A DNA stretch of 64,000 bases from Pirellula sp. Its GTDB lineage: Bacteria > Planctomycetota > Planctomycetia > Pirellulales > Pirellulaceae. Made by a program: the position numbers and the translations under genes. Location of the stretch: assembly GCA_021300015.1 (NCBI GenBank), contig JAJTFB010000008.1, forward strand, positions 1 through 64,000. Direction: 5' to 3'. Position 1 is the first letter of the stretch. The number at the start of each line of letters is the position of its first letter. Below the pieces are notes generated by a model. That model was not told the origin of the DNA, ran no database searches, and saw only the letters and a program-made list of their open reading frames with translations. Positions 19,354 through 28,939 of this stretch are shown one piece after another.

Positions 19354-19689
19354 TCAGCAACCGTTAGTTTGAACTTTTGTAGCAGCCATTTCAGTAAAAA
19401 TTTTTTGGTTGTCGATTGTCGCACGGCGAACTTGTGCCAGCAGATGGACTTGGTCGGGCTTGGGAAGGCTCGTATTCTGTAACCGTTCATTGCAATTCGT
19501 GCAAATGGCTCGAAGATTTTGAGGTGAATCCTCACCGACCTTCGATTTGTCGACGATATGCCCCATAGTGAGTCTTACGGTACGATCACCACCACTCGCA
19601 GCCTGAATGTCGCGAGATTCGAGAGTCTTCCCGAGATTGGCAAGAAAGTATTCAAGAATGAGTTGCTTTGAACTCTTACGTCGAGCCAT
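19354..19689 (-). pseudogene. Degenerate HNH restriction endonuclease (type II R-M remnant)
   Basis: From the ATG at 19689 the frame reads ILEYFLANLGKTLESRDIQA, then directly GGDRTVRLTMGHIVDKS and LRAICTNCNERLQNTS-LPKPD. These are the N-terminal helix and C-terminal HNH part of a known type II HNH nuclease family, but the ~60-70 residues between them (the WARRxRELR region and first zinc cysteines) are absent, an in-frame internal deletion. Near the 3' end, removing one A from the A6 run at ~19398-19403 would continue the frame into KFLLKWLLQKFK, the usual family ending, so a +1 frameshift is also present. Overlaps the methyltransferase end by 14 bp. Almost surely inactive as read. Confidence 0.65.
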
Positions 19690-20525
19690 CGAGACCTCGC
19701 TCTTTGGCGACTTGCGCATATTCCGGGTTCAATTCAACCAGCATCGCGTTTCGCTCAAGTTCGTTTGCAACAAGTCCCGTAGTACCGGATCCACCAAATG
19801 GGTCAAGCACCCAGTCACCTTCACGCGACCCGAGCAAAATACATCTCCTCGCTAACTCACGCGGAAACGCAGCGGGGTGGCTGTAGTTATTTTGAATCAG
19901 GACCCAAAACCCCGTAGTTGCGTAGATTTGCACCTGATTCTTCGCGTACTGCCTTCCAATCGTAATAGTACGCTGCAGACTTCGCGAAAAGAAAAATCTC
20001 TTCGGTTGCATTGGTAGGCCTATTCTTTACGCTTTCAGGCATTGCGGTTTTCTTGATCCATGTGATCTTGGACCGAAGTATCCAGCCATCCTCCTGCAAT
20101 GCGAATGCGACTCGCCAAGGAAGGCCCATGAGGTCTCGGTCCTTTAGTCCCCACACCTCGGGTACTTTACAATTTCGCTTTTGTATGAGCTTCTTCGTGT
20201 TGCCAACGACCGCATTGGGACCACACTTCCCCGTTCCCCCGTTTCTCGCGTACCCGTCACCTACATTCAACCACAGAGTCCCGTCATCTCGAAGAGTTCG
20301 GCGCACTTCTTTGAAAACCAACACTAAGTTCTTAACGTAGAGATCGGGGGACGCTTCTGCACCAATTTGGTCAGGATGGTCGTGGTCTCGCAAACCCCAG
20401 TAGGGAGGAGACGTTACACAACATTGGATAAGATTGGCTTCAAGCTCAGGGAGCACTTTTGCGCAATCACCATTGAAGACTCGCAGCTCGACTTCCCGTC
20501 CAAGATTGAGTTTTAGCTGTGGCAC
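19676..20525 (-). pseudogene. Frameshifted DNA methyltransferase (N4-cytosine/N6-adenine, type II)
   Basis: From a GTG at 20525 the frame gives GDCAKVLPELEANLIQCC-VTSPPYWGLRD (motif IV SPPYW near residue 40), DGTLWLNVGDGYARNGG and LPWRVAFALQEDGWI. It stops at 19887 after GVLGPDSK. The next frame continues NNYSHPAAFPRELARRCI and WVLDPFGGSGTTG (motif I) up to 19676. Removing a single T from the TTTT run near 19904-19910 joins the two into one normal beta-class enzyme (circularly ordered IV...I). So this is either a one-base frameshift mutant, a phase-variable gene or a consensus error. It is the partner of the HNH remnant that overlaps its 3' end. Confidence 0.7.
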
Positions 20526-20873
20526 AATACAAGATCGCTCCGAAGCTGGTGGTTTACCTAGGATTTCGGTACGTTTATAGCATTCAACTCGAAGTCGGTC
20601 ACGCCGAAAAAATCCTGCAATTCCCTGGCTGTTCGAACGACGTGGCCATAGGCACACTGCAAAAAGGCTCTTTGGTCAGATTGCCACAAAAGGCAGCGAT
20701 TATCGAGTACGAGTACCGTTTCACTGAGTCCAAGTAGGATAAGAGCCAAAACAGCGCAGCTTCAAAAGCCCACAGCGATGGACTTGAACAAGCCCGCCAG
20801 GGGCCCGCGTAGGAGCCTAGTTCCGCTTCCACCTCGTCTAAACAAACACCGAGGATCCCGAGTGACGGGACAC
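20526..20873. other. Gap between methyltransferase and PEP-CTERM gene
   Basis: A minus-strand frame ending at 20558 (RTARELQDFFGVTDF) looks slightly protein-like and overlaps the methyltransferase's upstream region; it could be a remnant of a third R-M component. Otherwise nothing recognised. Confidence 0.3.
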
Positions 20874-21608
20874 TCAGGGCACTGAAACGCCACGTCGCGC
20901 CCTGCTCAGGGGGCGTGCCCCGAAGGCGAATGCACTGAGCAGACTCAATATGAGAAAACTGGCGGGCTCTGGAACCGCCGCCGGTTCTACGTTCATCGTC
21001 AGGTCGAAGCCGCCTCTGGCGTCGGCGTCGTATCCAGGGCTTCCTGAGGTGGACATGGAACTGATCATTTGGAGATGGTACCTTCCCGTTTTGGTCAACA
21101 TTCCAGAAAACGAGAACGGGTCCGTTGAACCGGAAAAGTAGTTGCTTGTGAACGGAAACACGTCCATGCCATCTGGATCCCGGAACAAGATTCCCGCGTT
21201 CTCCATCTGCCCTGTGATCGTAAATGTCTGGCCGGTGCCGATGGACAAATAGGAGTCGAAGAGCAATCCGGCACCAATAGAGTTTGCAGTTCGCGTCGAG
21301 AGGTTGGTCCCGAAGGACCAGTCGCCGGACGCTGAGAGTAGCGATCCGGCGGCCGGTACACTGTAGGTCATTGTCGCCCTGTAGAAGGCGCTATCGTTGC
21401 CGTCGCCGGAGAAGCCTGCCACGGTGTCTGTAAAAGTTCCTAGGGTGTAACGGTATGCTTGTTTATTGTCAGCAGCGAAGCCATCCACCTGGGCACCACC
21501 GAAAGGGCCTACATAAAGATCGAGGATGACCGCACCGCTCGCGGGACCGGCCAAGCCAACTAATAGCAGTGCGACCGCAGCCGCCAATGTCGTACGAAAA
21601 TCGATCAT
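20874..21608 (-). CDS. PEP-CTERM sorted surface protein
   Basis: 244 aa. An N-terminal signal peptide (LAAAVALLLVGLAGPASG) is followed by a beta-rich, Gly/Ser/Thr-rich body and a C-terminal sorting tail: VPEPAS near 215, a hydrophobic helix FLILSLLSAFAFGA, then arginines. In this family an exosortase cuts and anchors the protein at the outer surface; no exosortase is in the window. GAGAAGG about 8 bases before the ATG is a good ribosome-binding site. One of three PEP-CTERM genes in this 10-kb stretch. Confidence 0.82.
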   Translation of the reverse strand: MIDFRTTLAAAVALLLVGLAGPASGAVILDLYVGPFGGAQVDGFAADNKQAYRYTLGTFTDTVAGFSGDGNDSAFYRATMTYSVPAAGSLLSASGDWSFGTNLSTRTANSIGAGLLFDSYLSIGTGQTFTITGQMENAGILFRDPDGMDVFPFTSNYFSGSTDPFSFSGMLTKTGRYHLQMISSMSTSGSPGYDADARGGFDLTMNVEPAAVPEPASFLILSLLSAFAFGARPLSRARRGVSVP

Positions 21609-21810
21609 GTAAAGTAGCCTTCTCGTTAAGGTATGAATTGAACGGTTGGGTTTCGCCCCCTCGGAGTGATCCTTGGCCGCCCGTGGCGGCCCAGTGACTG
21701 TCCATTTGTTTCACCCCGATGCCGTCACTCAGGTCAACGCGGTGGATCAGCACCCTTAGCCCAAGAGACTTCACCACGATCGCCGAACGCCTCTCGTTCA
21801 TGGGGACTAT

Positions 21811-21922
21811 TTGGTGCCATCCACCAATCGTCCCTCGGCGCTCGGTCTAACAAGTCAGTCAACAGTGACCGATAAGTAGCTCGCAGCTCATCAAGCGGAA
21901 CGCAATGGTCTTTCAGAATTTT
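21811..21922 (+). repeat. Copy A of a ~112-bp imperfect direct repeat
   Basis: Starts TTGGTGCCATCCACCAA and ends ATGGTCTTTCAGAATTTT. It aligns along its length, with small gaps, to 23923-24034 upstream of the ECF sigma gene. Here it lies between two PEP-CTERM genes and has no sigma gene after it. Confidence 0.6.
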
Positions 21923-21954
21923 TTGACAGGAGATTCAGAAGTCCCAGAAACCTA

Positions 21955-22974
21955 TCACGCGCAGCCGTCTGCTTCAGCGCCTGGTCCGGCCCCGCCGCGC
22001 GAGGACCGTCTGCGACGGGCCGCGACCATCAACACCGAGCCCAGTCCGAAAATGGCGAGGCTCGTCGGCTCTGGCACCGGGGCCTCGGTCGGCCCAAGAG
22101 TAAAACCGGAATCAAACGTCACTCCACCAGATACAGCGTTCCCGTCCGTTAGCGTCACGCCCGTCAACCGGATCGTGCCTACAAAGTCGGCCACCCCAAG
22201 TCCGCCTAGACTTGAAGTATAGTTATGCCCACTGGTGTACGCAGACGCGTACAAGTTCATCCCGTACCCGCCCAGCGTGTTGTCATAGCGCAGGTCGAAC
22301 AACACGTCCCAGCTAACCGTGCCGGCGCCATGTCGTAGATTCCGGGCTTCGTAGGTCGGGGCGTTCGTGTTATCGCCACTCAAGAAAAAGCTCGAGAGCC
22401 CAGCCGGAGAGGCTTGTGCGCCAGCCCACACCTCAGAATGAGGAAATGCATTGGCGTACGCGTTCGACTGCGGAATGACCGTCCCTGAGAACGGATTGTC
22501 GATACTGCGGAGGAGCGCGACCCCGACGCGAGCTTCACTGGTAGATATGATCTCGCCAGCACCTTCGCGAAGGTCCAGCCGACCCTCCACCTGCAACTGG
22601 ATTCGGAGGGTGGAGGGCAGTGAACTGCCCGTCACCCGGATGACATCCTGCCAGTTCGCCCCGACGATGGTTCGGGAGGCGTAGATCGAACCGCCCATGG
22701 CCGAGGAAGAGTAGAGTCGGATTCCCGGATTATGGATGAGGGACACAGATGCCTGCCCGCTTGCCAAGAGGACCGACCCTCCGGCGGTCGCCGACGTTCC
22801 ACCCGTGACCGGGAAGTTTGAGAACTCTTCGAAGGATCCCCGGCCGTTCGAGTAGACGTCCGACCTCCCGGAAACCCCGGCCTGAGTGATAACCACGGCC
22901 CGGCAGGGCTCTGACAGTCCCATGCAGAGGCAGATCATGCAAAAAATCGACTTCATCCTCATCTGAATCTTCAT
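21955..22974 (-). CDS. PEP-CTERM sorted surface protein
   Basis: 339 aa from the ATG at 22974, chosen because GGAGAGG lies about 8-13 bases upstream; an in-frame upstream start at 23013 has no such site. Signal peptide IFCMICLCMGLSEPCRA, then a beta-rich Ser/Gly/Asn-rich passenger, then VPEPTS near residue 300, a short hydrophobic helix LAIFGLGSVLMVAA and an arginine cluster RRRRSSRG. Extracellular after exosortase processing. Function of the passenger unknown. A short extra tail of about 14 residues (GGAGPGAEADGCA) follows the arginines, which is longer than usual for the class. Confidence 0.8.
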   Translation of the reverse strand: MKIQMRMKSIFCMICLCMGLSEPCRAVVITQAGVSGRSDVYSNGRGSFEEFSNFPVTGGTSATAGGSVLLASGQASVSLIHNPGIRLYSSSAMGGSIYASRTIVGANWQDVIRVTGSSLPSTLRIQLQVEGRLDLREGAGEIISTSEARVGVALLRSIDNPFSGTVIPQSNAYANAFPHSEVWAGAQASPAGLSSFFLSGDNTNAPTYEARNLRHGAGTVSWDVLFDLRYDNTLGGYGMNLYASAYTSGHNYTSSLGGLGVADFVGTIRLTGVTLTDGNAVSGGVTFDSGFTLGPTEAPVPEPTSLAIFGLGSVLMVAARRRRSSRGGAGPGAEADGCA

Positions 22975-23013
22975 TTTAGTTCCTCTCCGTTGTGGGCGTT
23001 CACCCATTTGCAC

Positions 23014-23315
23014 TTAACATCCGCGCCGTGCCCCAATCGCTCTAAGATCGGTACCAGTTAGTCCGAGATTCTTGCACCGGATGTGCAATTTATGGATGGC
23101 ACCTACTGGCTAGCGAACAACGATCATTCCCTGCAGTTGGCACCTACCACACGGACTAAGAGAAATGTCGGTCCAAACAAAACTCAACAAATCGTGGCGA
23201 TCGTCACTTGCACACCCTGGTCGACATAGTCGACCAGGATCACCGGGCGGGAGCAGGAGAACCAATCATCCGGAAGGGCGCGCAAGTCCCGCTTCGGTGC
23301 ATCCGAGCGTTCGAG
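23014..23315. other. Gap with perfect palindrome
   Basis: No gene recognised. It holds the inverted repeat listed at 23216-23238 and is otherwise without visible structure. Confidence 0.4.
23216..23238. promoter_or_regulatory. Perfect 10-bp inverted repeat (hairpin or operator)
   Basis: CCTGGTCGAC, three bases, GTCGACCAGG: a perfect palindrome about 80 bp beyond the end of the minus-strand gene at 23316. No T-run follows on the minus strand, so a simple intrinsic terminator is doubtful; a dimeric regulator site is equally possible. Confidence 0.4.
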
Positions 23316-23840
23316 CTAGCTCCGCATCATGGTTTCAAGACCACGCTGCGCAAGACTTTTCGCTCTGAAGCTTCCATTCGGTCCGACGCAAATAGAGACC
23401 TGTCTCCAGATTATCGTGTCACCGTTAAGAATCGTAGCGTCTGGAGCACTTGTAAACACAGCAGTACGATTGTTGCGATTCCTTTGCACGCCCTCTGGAC
23501 TTACAATATAGTACTGTAGGACTCGGTTGGGATTGGTGGACTTCGAATCCTCAAGTATGTAGGTCCCTTCCGCGTAAGGACGGTCGCGTCGGGGAGGCTC
23601 GGTAAATTCGACAGTAATACTGTCGATTTCTTGTCCTGGTGCAGCAAAAATCGGTGTGAACCCAAACAGACGAACACCCGGGATAACGCCAGAAGCCGCC
23701 TTGATCGCGACTGCTTTCATTACGTCATAGACTGTTGGATTGTCAGCGACATCTACCGAGATTTCGCGGGTGACGCTGTTTTCGTCATCAGGATATGAAC
23801 CAAAGTAGATTCCAAGCACTCGAAACTTAACATTGATCAC
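23316..23840 (-). CDS. Hypothetical protein, 174 aa
   Basis: Not recognised. No signal peptide or membrane segment; mostly beta strands with a helix after DNPTVYDVMKAVAIKA, a strand-helix pattern reminiscent of a beta-grasp fold. The central segment (TILNGDTIIWRQVS) and basic C-terminus give no catalytic hint. Shares the short string NPTVY with the secreted protein at 28940-29590, possibly by chance. Divergent from the ECF sigma gene, across the repeat B element, so it could be a target or partner of that regulator. Confidence 0.6.
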   Translation of the reverse strand: MINVKFRVLGIYFGSYPDDENSVTREISVDVADNPTVYDVMKAVAIKAASGVIPGVRLFGFTPIFAAPGQEIDSITVEFTEPPRRDRPYAEGTYILEDSKSTNPNRVLQYYIVSPEGVQRNRNNRTAVFTSAPDATILNGDTIIWRQVSICVGPNGSFRAKSLAQRGLETMMRS

Positions 23841-23922
23841 GATGCACCCTTTCGGATTGGAGGATAGTTCTCGCCGAACTGGCGGAGATTTGGGACTGTA
23901 AACAATTATTTAGCGGGACGTT

Positions 23923-24034
23923 TTGGAGCCATCCACCAAACGTATCGACGCGCTCGGGACCATCAGTCAGGTAATCGTGACCGATACGTCGCTCGCTGCA
24001 CACTAAGAAGAACGCGATGGTCTTTCAAGATTTC
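23923..24034 (+). repeat. Copy B of the ~112-bp repeat, upstream of the ECF sigma gene
   Basis: Starts TTGGAGCCATCCACCAAACG and ends ATGGTCTTTCAAGATTTC, aligned with 21811-21922. The ATG inside it opens a 13-codon frame (24017-24058, MVFQDFRFGPDNL) that stops at TGA overlapping the sigma gene ATG by ATGA. AAGAAG lies upstream of this small ATG. Confidence 0.6.
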
Positions 24035-24058
24035 CGGTTCGGTCCAGACAATCTATGA
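24017..24058 (+). CDS. Possible 13-aa leader peptide coupled to sigma gene
   Basis: ATG at 24017 preceded by AAGAAGAACG, stop TGA at 24056-24058 sharing ATGA with the sigma factor start at 24055. The sigma ATG itself has no visible ribosome-binding site, so reinitiation from this leader is a reasonable model. The same first codons (MVFQ-F) occur in repeat copy A. Confidence 0.4.
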   Translation: MVFQDFRFGPDNL

Positions 24059-24795
24059 AACTTGCCAAAAAATTTGCTTCCCGGGGCTATCGGCATGAGG
24101 CGTCGCAGGACTACAATTTGAACGACTTCCTTGCCCAAGCCTCGCCGATCGCACTTGCATCGCGGAGAAAAGTTTTGAAAGACAATAACGTTCTACGTCT
24201 TGCCGAGTCGGACAACAGTGTCTCAACGAGCATCCTCGAACGGGCAAAGCTTGGTGATCAAGACGCGTTCCGGATCATTACAGAATTGTATGCGGGTCTG
24301 GTTTACCACTGGATTAGAAAAAAAGGATTATCTCCGCAGGATGCTCAGGATGTAAGTCAGGAAGTTTTTGGATCGGTGATCCATAACCTCAAAAGATTCC
24401 ATCGAACAAATGCGGACCAAAGTTTTCGCGCGTGGATAAGGGTAATCACCCGTTCAAAAATTGCAGATCACTTTCGTAAAAGCGTCGGTGTCGAAATTGC
24501 CCTTGGTGGAGATAACCCTCTGTTTGACTTTGTAAGCAACGAAAAAAACGAGGAGCACGAGGAGAGCAATCACGATAAAGCGGTCCTTTACCAAAAAGCA
24601 GTTGAGTTCATCAAAGGGGAATTTGCAGACAAAGATTGGAGGGCGTTCCTAATGCTTGTAGTTGATGAGATCCCAGCAAGGGAGGTTGCGGAAATACTCG
24701 GAAACAGTGTGAATTCGGTGTACATCGCCAAGTCGAGAATACTCAAGCGACTTCATGACGAGTTCGGGGGCTTGATTGATGACGAAACGATTTAG
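24055..24795 (+). CDS. ECF RNA polymerase sigma factor
   Basis: 246 aa, longer than typical ECF factors (~180-200) because of an N-terminal extension of about 55 residues. Region 2: DQDAFRIITELYAGLVYHWI and SPQDAQDVSQEVFGSVIHNL with FRAWIRVITRSKIADHFRK (the promoter-melting segment). Region 4: FLMLVVDEIPAREVAEILGN and SVYIAKSRILKRL, the -35-binding HTH. Directly followed (25 bp) by a kinase with a zinc motif like those of anti-sigma factors, so activity is probably controlled by that membrane protein. The A+T-rich base use differs from the 30-62 kb region. Confidence 0.88.
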   Translation: MKLAKKFASRGYRHEASQDYNLNDFLAQASPIALASRRKVLKDNNVLRLAESDNSVSTSILERAKLGDQDAFRIITELYAGLVYHWIRKKGLSPQDAQDVSQEVFGSVIHNLKRFHRTNADQSFRAWIRVITRSKIADHFRKSVGVEIALGGDNPLFDFVSNEKNEEHEESNHDKAVLYQKAVEFIKGEFADKDWRAFLMLVVDEIPAREVAEILGNSVNSVYIAKSRILKRLHDEFGGLIDDETI

Positions 24796-24820
24796 ATGAA
24801 ACAGGGAGTACGCCATTCAA

Positions 24821-27800
24821 ATGGAATTGTCGCGCGAAACAATAGGCTCATCGGATCAGTGCCCAACCGACCCTGAGTGGCAAGCGTATGCTGTTGGCAG
24901 GGTAGAACAGCAGGCCCTACAGTTGATGTCTAGTCACCTGCTGGCCTGTCAACAGTGCTTGGAAGTCCTAGATAGGATTTCCTCGAAAGAATCGAAACCC
25001 CATCCAAACGAGCCAATGTCCCCATTTCTTTTGGAGGAAAATTGCCTTCGCCTCGAAGAGATGCTTGCAGGAATCCAGATAGGATGGGAAGCACCAACGG
25101 ACTCGGCGGACTCCAAGGATGATTCATCGTCGATAGAGTCCTTAAAAATGTTGGGAAGATTTGAAATCCAAGGTGTATTGGGTACAGGCGGATTTGGCCG
25201 TGTGTTTTTGGGTTACGATCCACTACTGAAACGGTCCGTCGCGATAAAAGCCCCAAAGCGCACGGCATTTGGAACCGAAGGTGACCTGGAAAACTTTCTC
25301 ACCGAAGCACGGCATGCGGCTGCGTTGGATCATCCAAACATCGTACCGATTTATGACATTTTGGGAGATGCGTCGGGGCATACGCTTATCGTCATGAAGC
25401 ATGTGTGTGGAAAACCATTGTCCGCTCAGCACAAACAGGGGAAAACTGCCTTAGAAACAATCGTGCGACAGATGATCGTTGTCGCCAAAGCCATACACTA
25501 CGCTCACGAACGAGGATTTGTCCACCGCGATCTCAAGCCGTCGAATATCCTGATTGACGAGTTCGGGCAACCCCATGTTACCGACTTTGGATTGGGAATG
25601 AACCTTTCAGAACTATCCTCGAAACACATAAGTCGGGGAGGGACTCCTCCCTACATGTCGCCAGAGCAGGTTCGTCATGATGTGCTGATGATTGACCGAC
25701 GCTCCGACATTTGGGCGATCGGAGTCGTGCTATCAGAACTGGTACACGGGCGACGACCTTTCCCTCAAAAAGACCGAAACAAGCTATTTCATGAAATACA
25801 AAACGATGAGCCGCTCATCGAGTCGACACGAGAAACTTATGAAATAGATGGTATTATCAGACGTTGCTTAAGTAGAGATCCTGCAGATCGATATCCCACT
25901 GCGGAGAGCTTAGCGAATCAACTACAGGACCTACACAATCGATGCTTTTCTACGGGCCTCAAGAAGTGGTTGTATGGGGGAAGACGAAAACTGGTCATCT
26001 TACTCTCGCTCGTTGTGATCGCTGCCTCATTTTGGGGATACTCCATTCTTGAAAGGCAAAAGCAGATCCATTTGACGTTCTCTCAGATCAAGAATGCATC
26101 GATAAGCAGTCTTCCTTATTTGCTTGGAAAGCTCAGGCAACTCAAACCGTCGCAGGAAACATTGGCAGCAGATCTTGAGACTCCAACCACCAATACCGCT
26201 GTTTTTAACCGTAACCTAACGTTGCTGGTTTTTGGAGACCGTAGTGAACAGACAACCGAACGAGTCATTAGCTTTTTGCAAACAGCCGATGCTGGTGAAA
26301 TAGACTCTGTTGGAAAATGCATCGTCGATGGACCGACTAAAACGTTCCTGGAACCGATCGTCGTTCAGCGACTCGTCGTTCAGCGACGGAGTGAGTCTAA
26401 CGTTGCATCCGATACGGATTCAGCCCTAAGGCTTGCAGCTTTGTTGTCCTACCTTGATCCCCAAAACTCCATTTGGCTATCTCTCAGCAAGAGTGTTTCA
26501 TCGACCCTTGTCTCTATGCCTCAACTCGAAATGCAGCAATGGTTGACTTGTTTTGATCACGTCGGTCCAAAACACTTAGGTAAATCCTTGGGCGAGCTTG
26601 CTCTAGCTGCAAATACCTCTCGCGAAACGCGACTTAACGCTACTGTCGCCCTAGTCAAGTTTTTTGGTGCGGATACAGACTTTTTGTGTGGATTGATTTG
26701 CGATTTGGAAGAATTTCAGATCCCGACAGTTACGCTAGCGCTTCGTGATCGACGAACAGCAGCAATCGCATCTTTGAAAAAGCTCCACAGGGAATCCCAA
26801 TCTGGAATACCCTCCTCAGGCCAGAGTAATCTCGCACGCCCAATCTCCATGCCAGCTCGGGTCTCAAATTTAGCTATTGCAACTTGGCTACTTGGAGATC
26901 AAGAGATCGCATTCGATTCGTTCCAGAGTTCGACTGACGCAACGCTTCTGACTCTTTTTGTTCACAAGCTTTCGAATCTAGATATAGATTCAAAACCCGT
27001 GTTTGACAGTCTTTTGAGCCTGAAAGACAGAAATGATCAACCATCCTCAACAATCAAATTCGGCTTATTGCAACTGCTTTCACGATTGCGAGCGGACCAA
27101 ATTCCAAACGCCGAGTTGGAGGGCTTACTGAATTACTTTTGGCTCCATGACCCAGACTGCGGCGTTCACTCGATGGCAAGGCTGAACGCGTCGAAATTTG
27201 ACATTGAACTAAACGTACCTCCGTTTGTTCAGAATAGTACTTGGCTCGTAGATGAAATCGGAGGGCAGTATCAAGATTTCGCGGTCATTGAACCTTGCGT
27301 CGCTGCACTCGGAATGCCTGATGGCCAACTTGAACCACTTTTGACCGACCCATGGCCTTGGCACGATCGAAGGTTTACACGACGTATCGCCATCGCCACG
27401 AACGAAGTGACGATCAAACAATTCAGAGTTTTTCTTCCCGAGTACTTTGCAACCGATCCGATGTTGACTGAAGCGGATCCAGATGCCGCGATGGCTATGG
27501 TATCCATGCAAGCGGCGTATATCTTCTGCAATAGCTGGTCGGTCGCATCAGGACTACAGACGTGCTATGAAACGAGAAGTGACGAAGATGGGCGAGAAAA
27601 ACTTTATCCCAAGACGAACCATCTTGCACTCAATGGTTATCGATTACCTACGGACGGGGAATGGGAGTTGGCATGCCGATCTGGTACTACCACAAACAGG
27701 TTTTACGGCGATGCAGAACACCTGGAACACCAATACGGGTGGGTAAGCGAAACACCGGGAATTCGATTCTACAACGGTGCGTTTATTTCACAACCCGTAG

Positions 27801-28078
27801 CTCGCTTTTTACCAAATCGTTGGGGATTGTTCGACATGTACGGAAATGTCAAAGAGATTTGCAATCGCAGTTGCGACCCAATACGAGACAGCGATGAGTT
27901 CATTGATGACGAATCAAAATCGGAAGCGAGTCCATATGGAGGCCCAAGAATTAGAGGGGTGTCTTTGGATGCCCCGGGTGAACTTTGGGGCTTCAGCTAT
28001 TGCCGAACGGATCGTATCGTTGGCGAACCGGATCCACTGAACGGATTCCGGGTCGTCAGAACTTTACTTGGCGAATGA
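24821..28078 (+). CDS. Transmembrane Ser/Thr protein kinase with ZAS-like N-terminus and FGE-sulfatase domain
   Basis: 1085 aa. An H-x3-C-x2-C motif at about 38-45 (HLLACQQC) is the hallmark of zinc-binding anti-sigma domains. Kinase domain ~112-375: glycine loop GTGGFGRVF near 121, VAIK lysine near 140, HRDLKPSN near 234, DFGLG near 254, SPEQV. One membrane helix at ~386-408 (LVILLSLVVIAASFWGYSIL). A long helical middle follows, and residues ~845-1085 are a formylglycine-generating-enzyme-like (FGE-sulfatase) domain: NEVTIKQF, GYRLPTDGEWELACRSG, GLFDMYGNVKEIC, NGFRVVR. Kinase faces the cytoplasm, FGE domain outside. Upstream AGGGAG is a good ribosome site. Partner of the ECF factor; kinase residues look complete. 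Confidence 0.88.
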   Translation: MELSRETIGSSDQCPTDPEWQAYAVGRVEQQALQLMSSHLLACQQCLEVLDRISSKESKPHPNEPMSPFLLEENCLRLEEMLAGIQIGWEAPTDSADSKDDSSSIESLKMLGRFEIQGVLGTGGFGRVFLGYDPLLKRSVAIKAPKRTAFGTEGDLENFLTEARHAAALDHPNIVPIYDILGDASGHTLIVMKHVCGKPLSAQHKQGKTALETIVRQMIVVAKAIHYAHERGFVHRDLKPSNILIDEFGQPHVTDFGLGMNLSELSSKHISRGGTPPYMSPEQVRHDVLMIDRRSDIWAIGVVLSELVHGRRPFPQKDRNKLFHEIQNDEPLIESTRETYEIDGIIRRCLSRDPADRYPTAESLANQLQDLHNRCFSTGLKKWLYGGRRKLVILLSLVVIAASFWGYSILERQKQIHLTFSQIKNASISSLPYLLGKLRQLKPSQETLAADLETPTTNTAVFNRNLTLLVFGDRSEQTTERVISFLQTADAGEIDSVGKCIVDGPTKTFLEPIVVQRLVVQRRSESNVASDTDSALRLAALLSYLDPQNSIWLSLSKSVSSTLVSMPQLEMQQWLTCFDHVGPKHLGKSLGELALAANTSRETRLNATVALVKFFGADTDFLCGLICDLEEFQIPTVTLALRDRRTAAIASLKKLHRESQSGIPSSGQSNLARPISMPARVSNLAIATWLLGDQEIAFDSFQSSTDATLLTLFVHKLSNLDIDSKPVFDSLLSLKDRNDQPSSTIKFGLLQLLSRLRADQIPNAELEGLLNYFWLHDPDCGVHSMARLNASKFDIELNVPPFVQNSTWLVDEIGGQYQDFAVIEPCVAALGMPDGQLEPLLTDPWPWHDRRFTRRIAIATNEVTIKQFRVFLPEYFATDPMLTEADPDAAMAMVSMQAAYIFCNSWSVASGLQTCYETRSDEDGREKLYPKTNHLALNGYRLPTDGEWELACRSGTTTNRFYGDAEHLEHQYGWVSETPGIRFYNGAFISQPVARFLPNRWGLFDMYGNVKEICNRSCDPIRDSDEFIDDESKSEASPYGGPRIRGVSLDAPGELWGFSYCRTDRIVGEPDPLNGFRVVRTLLGE

Positions 28079-28138
28079 TCGAAACACAGGTTCGGTCTAA
28101 GTTACTTGGTTTTTTTCAATCTTTAGAAGGATAGAGCG

Positions 28139-28477
28139 ATGTCAGACGGTCTCCCCATTGACGTGTTACCAGAGGACCCAAATTGGAGTCCTACTCCCGA
28201 CCAACTTAAAGATTGGAAAACCAACTATCCGGACGTTTTATTCAAAGCAAATGCCAGCAATGTCAACTGGGTTGATTCGGATGGTAACAATGTCTCGACC
28301 ATTCCTATATCGCCATGCGGTTTTGCAGTTTACGAATGGAAGATAGTCTCAGGGAGAGGTGAATGGGATGAGATTGTGACTGAAAGACGTTGCAGAACTG
28401 GCTGCAATCCAGTCCCTCCCCTCGCAGTTCCGGGTGCCATGCCACTTAAAATGCGAATTGCAAAACCATGCAGTTAG
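28139..28477 (+). CDS. Small hypothetical protein after the kinase
   Basis: 112 aa, 60 bp downstream of the kinase with AAGGA about 9 bases before the ATG, hence probably the third gene of the sigma-kinase operon. Proline-rich N-terminus (PEDPNWSPTPDQLKDW) and several cysteines in the second half (SPCGF, RRCRTGCNP, KPCS). No signal peptide. The cysteines could bind metal. Family not recognised. Confidence 0.65.
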   Translation: MSDGLPIDVLPEDPNWSPTPDQLKDWKTNYPDVLFKANASNVNWVDSDGNNVSTIPISPCGFAVYEWKIVSGRGEWDEIVTERRCRTGCNPVPPLAVPGAMPLKMRIAKPCS

Positions 28478-28939
28478 GGCATCTATTTTGATGCGCCCCC
28501 ATGCGTCAATGAGCCGATTTGCGGAATCGGCTTGATGGGTTTGGCATGCAATTTTTGTTGATCCCCCAGATGCGGCAATCGCAAGTAGGACCTCTTTGGT
28601 GCAATAATTGCGGCAGGGCTAGTTCGGCATGAAACGGATGGAGCAGTCTGACAGTGGGATTTTCAAGAATCTTTCTATCGGAGGGGCACCATGGTTCGTC
28701 GGCTGGATATATACAAAACAAGGGGAGTCGAACATTTATACGCAACCGGGATGTCCAAGCGTTAGATTACCAAAACCCTTGGAGGTTATCGGAAGTCTTT
28801 CGATCGGAGCGTTCAATCCTTCGATTTGATAGTCGAACTCCTTGGCCAGGCTGTCGGCTGTCAACCTTAGGTTCGGAAGCGACGTGAAATACGACTCCGG
28901 GTCTAACGCTACGCTCTGTGACCGTGCAATCAATAGAGA
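28478..28939. other. Gap with terminator and a doubtful small frame
   Basis: After the terminator-like hairpin (28512-28532) a minus-strand frame at 28736-28933 (LRLTADSLAKEFDYQIEGLN) has protein-like composition and begins just after the stop of the secreted protein at 28940. It could be a 65-aa protein or the remains of a longer one; evidence is weak. Confidence 0.35.
28512..28532 (+). terminator. Terminator-like hairpin after the sigma-kinase operon
   Basis: AGCCGATT, loop TGCGG, AATCGGCT: an 8-bp perfect stem 34 bp after the stop of the 112-aa gene. Only a short T-containing tail follows, so strength is uncertain. Confidence 0.45.

Follow-up and report, generated by a model that had tools for sequence, protein, structure and literature searches.

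We analysed a 64-kb window of Pirellula sp. (positions 1 to 64,000 of contig JAJTFB010000008.1, C104, which is 94.8 kb long), and studied a duplicated element of 119 nt upstream of a gene for an extracytoplasmic function (ECF) sigma factor, together with the genes around it. The window belongs to a draft genome of 4.26 Mb that is 81% complete. We compared it with 27 genomes of the genus and with 117 genomes of relatives; the relatives named most often below are referred to as G009, G010, G014 and G020. The features at the centre of the analysis are listed by coordinates and strand.

20874–21608 (−): PEP-CTERM-like gene 1, oriented divergently from copy A; in G014 the element lies next to the orthologue of this gene (79–80% amino acid identity); no Pfam match
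21803–21921 (+): copy A of the 119-nt repeat, probably the orphaned old sigma upstream region beside PEP-CTERM gene 1; identical to the G014 element at 100 of 113 positions
21955–22974 (−): PEP-CTERM gene 2 (PF07589), between copies A and B; found in 1 of the 27 genus genomes, its own
23316–23840 (−): gene for a 174-aa protein of no known family (no match in Pfam, NCBIfam or PHROGs), between copies A and B; found in 3 of 117 genomes including its own
23915–24033 (+): copy B, probably the present sigma upstream region; identical to G010 at 109 of 113 positions, and to both G014 and copy A at 85 of 113
24009–24033 (+): upstream arm, complementary to 24170–24194 at 20 of 25 bases (p = 0.0025 on shuffles)
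24010–24027 (+): GAACGCNATGGTCTTTCA, the conserved core in the 3'-terminal part of the element (21898–21915 in copy A); 17 of 18 positions invariant in four copies
24017–24057 (+): 13-codon frame whose stop codon TGA overlaps the ATG at 24055; probably not a gene; not conserved in G014
24164–24167 (+): GGAG, the probable ribosome-binding site of the sigma gene, 7 nt before the TTG at 24175; also in G010 and G014
24170–24194 (+): downstream arm, which includes the probable start codon of sigma; predicted to pair with the upstream arm in copy B and G010
24175–24795 (+): ECF sigma gene from its probable TTG start, 206 aa (246 aa for the frame from 24055); PF04542 and TIGR02937; NTG start aligned in five homologues
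24821–28078 (+): Ser/Thr kinase with a C-terminal domain of FGE-sulfatase-like type (FGE, formylglycine-generating enzyme), in the same operon as the sigma gene; PF00069 and PF03781

Copies A and B form a gapless direct repeat with 75% identity. With E = 3.7e-16 across the 4.26-Mb genome searched, this likeness is far above chance, and the duplication reported in the initial annotation was thus borne out. Since the longest exact run common to the two copies is only 12 nt, a misassembly caused by the repeat is unlikely. Both copies contain ATGGTCTTTCA, with an ATG at 21905 in copy A and at 24017 in copy B.

Searched by blastn with copy B, the own genome yielded copies A and B and no others. Across the 27 genus genomes this search found four places in three genomes, i.e. 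copies A and B, one copy in G010 (96% identity) and one in G014 (75% identity), and all four are located at one sigma–kinase locus. The next matches among the 117 relatives had E-values of 0.002 or worse, as chance would give. Furthermore, a covariance model based on these four sequences recovered the same four and nothing further below E 0.038, and plasmid and phage collections contained no match to 21600–24300. The initial annotation had pictured a possible leader/attenuator or autoregulated promoter common to a sigma regulon and had suggested looking for further copies before other ECF or PEP-CTERM genes; no such copies turned up elsewhere in the genus genomes. With just four copies, all at this locus, these searches indicate that the element is not a multi-copy repeat or a regulon-wide promoter.

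Two further candidate copies were discarded. A match on contig C240 of G010 (85% over 33 nt) falls within an unrelated long open reading frame (ORF), and a possible third copy at 23088–23103 on the reverse strand, which agrees with GGTGCCATCCACCAAT at 14 of 16 positions, was attributed to chance as one of ten similar inverted pairs in 6 kb. The motif GCCATCCACCA, with up to two mismatches, occurred 30 times in the window against 19.7 expected, a count reached by 2 of 100 shuffles. The pattern GAACG-N5-GTCTTTCAA, with one mismatch allowed, matched in 26 of the 27 genomes, mostly near the level of a reversed-pattern control, and is uninformative on copies elsewhere; it also detected the in-gene arm where sigma begins in the window, G010, G014, G009 and G020.

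The gene order in G014 is PEP-CTERM gene 1, element, sigma gene and kinase gene. The window and G014 are collinear over 20803–21627 and 21743–21915 (85% identity), and again over 24055–28480 (84.8%). The blastn block through copy A stops at 21915, the end of the core, and the junction between copy A and the intervening sequence falls at the best conserved part of the element. Either homeologous or site-specific recombination may have produced it. With G010, one collinear block spans 23215–28490 (94.3%). Over 113 aligned positions, 13 differences separate copy A from G014 and 4 separate copy B from G010, while 28 were counted between copies A and B and likewise between copy B and G014. Twenty sites unite copy A and G014 against copy B, and five sites support each of the two other groupings. 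Because the G014 element sits between the same neighbours and matches copy A (100 of 113) better than copy B does (85 of 113), copy A appears to mark the old left junction. By position and sequence, copy A is the counterpart of the G014 element, and its former sigma gene would be the one now found behind copy B. The G014 gene order supports the proposed loss of a sigma gene behind copy A, which adjoins PEP-CTERM gene 1.

The stretch between the two copies is patchy in its distribution, as the counts for its two genes listed above indicate, and PEP-CTERM gene 1 was found in 2 of the 27 genus genomes; all of these counts include the own genome, and some of the genomes behind them are incomplete. 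Of the sequence that separates copy A from PEP-CTERM gene 1, about 115 nt at 21628–21742 are missing from G014, where the sequence is continuous.

The start of the sigma gene was assessed by comparison of the homologues. The column at 24175 reads TTG in the window, G010, G014 and G009 and GTG in G020, and GGAG precedes the aligned start in the first three. When the 246-aa frame is aligned with the homologues, the match begins only at its residue 34 for G009 and at its residue 39 for G020. In the 40 codons of 24055–24174, the proportions of nonsynonymous (pN) and synonymous (pS) differences from G014 were.34 and.39, against.13 and.27 in the sigma gene from 24175 onward (p = 5e-6 for pN). The ATG at 24055 exists in the window, G010 and G014. 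We infer that TTG 24175, preceded by a GGAG of its own, is probably where translation of sigma begins. According to the initial annotation, the sigma gene lacks its own ribosome site, which holds for the ATG at 24055 but fails for the TTG at 24175, with its GGAG and an NTG column in five genomes; the probable start thus lies downstream of 24055, as judged by comparison rather than by mapping. A comparative study (PMC5397173) counts Planctomycetes among the phyla whose species tend toward few Shine–Dalgarno genes, and hence the absent ribosome site at 24055 proves little either way.

In its 3' part the element repeats the sigma start region in inverted orientation, with 20 of 25 bases complementary in cis. 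The pairing score of arm and start was 30 in the window, where 33 gene starts were tried and the runner-up scored 24. Copy A scored 49 against the start region of G020, above the maximum of 5000 shuffles (38). On shuffles, the p-value was 0.001 in G010 and 0.009 in G014 (score 26); together with that of the window these tests are not independent. A leader/start duplex of equal strength was reached by 4% of the shuffles for copy B, 4% for G010, 76% for G014, 27% for G009 and 34% for G020. In predicted leader folds the two arms were paired in copy B and G010 (z = −1.4 and −1.7, with the whole fold not significant). The paired blocks GAACG and CTTTCA are invariant in the window, G010, G014 and G020, and the seven bases between them vary uncompensated. 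Only the upstream arm is informative here, because coding for the protein (LKDNNV and variants) also constrains the in-gene arm. A consensus RNA fold of the four elements (−12.1 kcal/mol, with changes on both sides in 3 of 23 pairs) was not used as evidence. An Rfam covariance search of 20000–27000 gave a single match outside the element (E = 0.22; 24.3 bits against a gathering score of 80). A scan for sigma-70-type promoters found 3 against 1.2 expected, none of them inside copy A or B. One weak sigma-70-like site lies at 24090–24117, downstream of the element; if this were the operon promoter, the transcript would be without the upstream arm.

The explanation that we consider rather probable treats the element as the upstream region of the sigma–kinase operon, copy A as orphaned by a rearrangement of about 2.1 kb, the 13-codon frame as a by-product of an indel, and TTG 24175 as the sigma start. 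The element would be the intergenic region, presumably holding a promoter and a 5' leader, before a single operon of ECF sigma and Ser/Thr kinase genes. The ancestral order, retained in G014, would have been divergent PEP-CTERM gene, element and sigma gene. In the line of the window, about 2.1 kb with PEP-CTERM gene 2, the 174-aa gene and the diverged copy B would now separate the old element from sigma, which would leave copy A as an orphan next to PEP-CTERM gene 1, with copy B in front of the sigma gene. More tentatively, the 3' end of the element may pair with the sigma start in the mRNA, reducing translation until it is opened. Such masking of the start is the most economical functional reading of the complementary arms, for which the evidence is as yet weak, and a simple old inverted duplication is its null hypothesis. 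The more general idea of a regulatory leader may therefore survive through the pairing with the sigma start, not through the 13-codon frame. If the pairing is true, it would add an RNA layer to the kinase-paired type of Planctomycete sigma factor, and the locus would exemplify how a leader that has been cut off can persist.

Several observations weigh against this explanation. The junctions of copy A with PEP-CTERM gene 2, and of the latter with the 174-aa gene, come from one assembly. Synonymous divergence between the window and G014 was 27% in the sigma gene, 30% in the kinase gene and 21% in PEP-CTERM gene 1; copy B is 25% divergent from G014, which is not slower than synonymous sites (Fisher p = 0.77), and copy A is 12% divergent, which is somewhat slower (p = 0.04). 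Because copy B diverges as synonymous sites do and copy A only somewhat slower, the similarity of the copies is by itself weak evidence of constraint. With respect to the start codon, codon usage in 24055–24174 is coding-like in the sigma frame (a score matched by 7% of 106 stop-free intergenic chunks), and the sigma frame upstream of 24175 survives two compensating indels between the window and G014. As to the pairing, it was not significant in G020 (p = 0.32, the best pairing being in the same register) or in G009 (none; p = 0.44). Folds of G014, G009 and G020 lacked the paired arms, the G014 stretch being too short to include the upstream arm, and no compensatory changes in the stem were seen among the few sequences available (window, G010, G014 and G020).

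The initial annotation had proposed a 13-codon ORF that is coupled to a sigma gene starting at ATG 24055 and lacking its own ribosome site. The frame is present in copy B as described (MVFQDFRFGPDNL), with its TGA overlapping the ATG as ATGA, and G010 has the same short frame and overlap with two bases changed. The ATG at 24055 in three genomes and the coding-like codon usage behind it would also fit. Such a coupled leader nevertheless seems improbable. In G014, the same ATG opens a stop-free frame of 283 aa that runs in frame into sigma, and the spacing of the two ATGs is 114 nt there against 38 nt in copy B, i.e. a frame-changing indel. The counterpart frame in copy A has no stop at that point and extends over 105 aa (21905–22222), antisense to PEP-CTERM gene 2. 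G009 has no counterpart of the element upstream of sigma; in G020, AGAAGAACG-N7-CTTTCAAGA was spotted by eye about 140 nt upstream of the sigma start, with no ATG in the motif. A leader peptide is recognised as a small ORF conserved in relatives, and this one occurs only in copy B and G010. The conserved ribosome site before TTG 24175 also speaks against coupling at 24055. The 13-codon frame and its ATGA overlap are probably an effect of the indel, not a translated leader. A less remote, though still rather unlikely, alternative is that sigma starts at ATG 24055 (in G014 at the core ATG) with a fast-evolving N-terminal extension, which the window and G010 have partly lost by the frame-changing indel, leaving the short frame behind. 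It would account for the 78 stop-free codons in G014, where the sigma frame is the best of six, and for the coding-like codon usage in the window, and ECF groups with such extensions are described from Planctomycetes in PMC8103513. However, pN almost equals pS in 24055–24174, G009 and G020 have no extension (codon scores of −0.002 and −0.289 there), and GGAG and NTG are aligned at 24175.

Other alternatives concern the origin of the copies. The stretch from A to B could be a cassette that recombined in at the 18-bp core as an attachment site, with its position before sigma accidental. The junction of copy A with foreign sequence at the end of the best conserved stretch, the patchy intervening genes and the presence of the 174-aa family beside another ECF–kinase locus in G015 would fit a cassette. 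Nevertheless, no recombinase gene lies between A and B, plasmid and phage records gave no match, and the left end of the part shared with G010 (23215) lies inside the stretch, without a copy of the element; there is also only a single case. We give the cassette a small chance. The likeness of the element to the sigma start might instead reflect a decayed inverted sigma fragment, i.e. a pseudogene on the minus strand. The reverse complement of copy A indeed matches the sigma start of G020 at 35 of 42 bases with one gap (score 49, against a maximum of 38 in 5000 shuffles), but the likeness ends after about 14 codons, and the sigma-family profile matched nothing in six frames (best E = 0.086, in another region and frame). 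The minus-strand frame is interrupted by stops in copy B, G010 and G014, i.e. in three of the four copies, and the 66-aa frame through copy A yielded only element copies below E 0.01 in 117 genomes. A minus-strand gene or pseudogene was accordingly rejected as highly improbable. We also considered that, while the arm of copy B folds onto the sigma start in cis, the orphaned copy A represses the same start in trans as a small RNA, the insertion having cut the leader off from its gene and turned it into an antisense RNA. The arm of copy A matches the sigma start better than that of copy B (score 34 against 30), and 2 of 300 shuffles reached the trans duplex of −42.3 kcal/mol. Such repression in trans is nonetheless a very faint prospect. 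The result is largely a correction: the leader story based on ATGA fails when relatives are compared, and the orphan copy is explained by a local rearrangement.

In Escherichia coli, rseD is translationally coupled to rpoE. The present locus resembles this system, in which rseD is the rpoE leader peptide (PMC8595263), in having a short frame directly before an ECF sigma gene in one operon. It differs in that sister species do not share the short frame and in that sigma probably has its own ribosome site. Pairs of ECF sigma factors and Ser/Thr kinases have been described (ECF43/EcfP–PknT type, and Planctomycete loci; PMC8103513). Like these, the sigma factor has regions 2 and 4 and is encoded next to a kinase, but the kinase here also bears the FGE-like domain. 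Kinase-dependent ECF groups are described as having uncharged residues in place of the charged DAED motif (PMC8103513), whereas the present sigma factor reads DAQD at the stretch that we aligned with this motif. The literature on Planctomycete ECF–kinase loci, on PEP-CTERM genes with sigma factors and on ECF leaders, mostly as titles and abstracts, contained nothing on this locus. The predicted fold shares one feature with 5' leaders that mask translation, namely an upstream arm complementary to the start-codon region that pairs with it in copy B and G010. In such leaders, e.g. RNA thermometers, a leader arm folds back on the start region. The present fold departs from them in that it lacks compensatory changes, a known trigger and an Rfam family, and in that distant relatives give it little support.

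The proteins of the operon were assigned by profile searches. The sigma factor scored above the cut-off with PF04542 (41.6 bits) and TIGR02937, and just under it with PF08281 (22.4 bits against 25.7); the kinase scored 154.7 bits with PF00069. A protein-level scan of the genomes for sigma identified one close locus, QWPJ01000026.1, and 14 further loci that were distant (at most 43%, best segment) and were not used.

Downstream of the kinase, the window has one more frame:

28139–28477 (+): 112-aa frame

Small proteins of 112–124 aa were found 3' of the kinase in the window, in G009 and in G020 (window 28139–28477 on the forward strand, L072 9533–9907 and L073 6844–7197), and frames with the same C-terminal end also occur in G010 and G014. 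Little is conserved in them beyond WSP near the start and a C-terminal ending of the type MP-x-G-M/L-x-I-x-x-x-C. This protein is possibly a third member of the sigma–kinase operon, without a known family. The start of the kinase (window 24821–25000) contains H-x3-C-x2-C in SSHLLACQQC, which we take to resemble the zinc-binding signature of anti-sigma factors; the kinase may carry a fused anti-sigma domain.

Among the 117 genomes, the 174-aa protein has a sole distant relative, in G015 (38%; L109 5318–5944), whose gene likewise lies upstream of an ECF sigma gene, in divergent orientation to it, with a kinase gene following the sigma gene. On the other side of PEP-CTERM gene 1, within 19354–20657 on the reverse strand, an N6_N4-type DNA methyltransferase is apparently split into two frames (19887–20657 and 19676–20011), followed by an HNH-endonuclease-like frame at 19354–19719.

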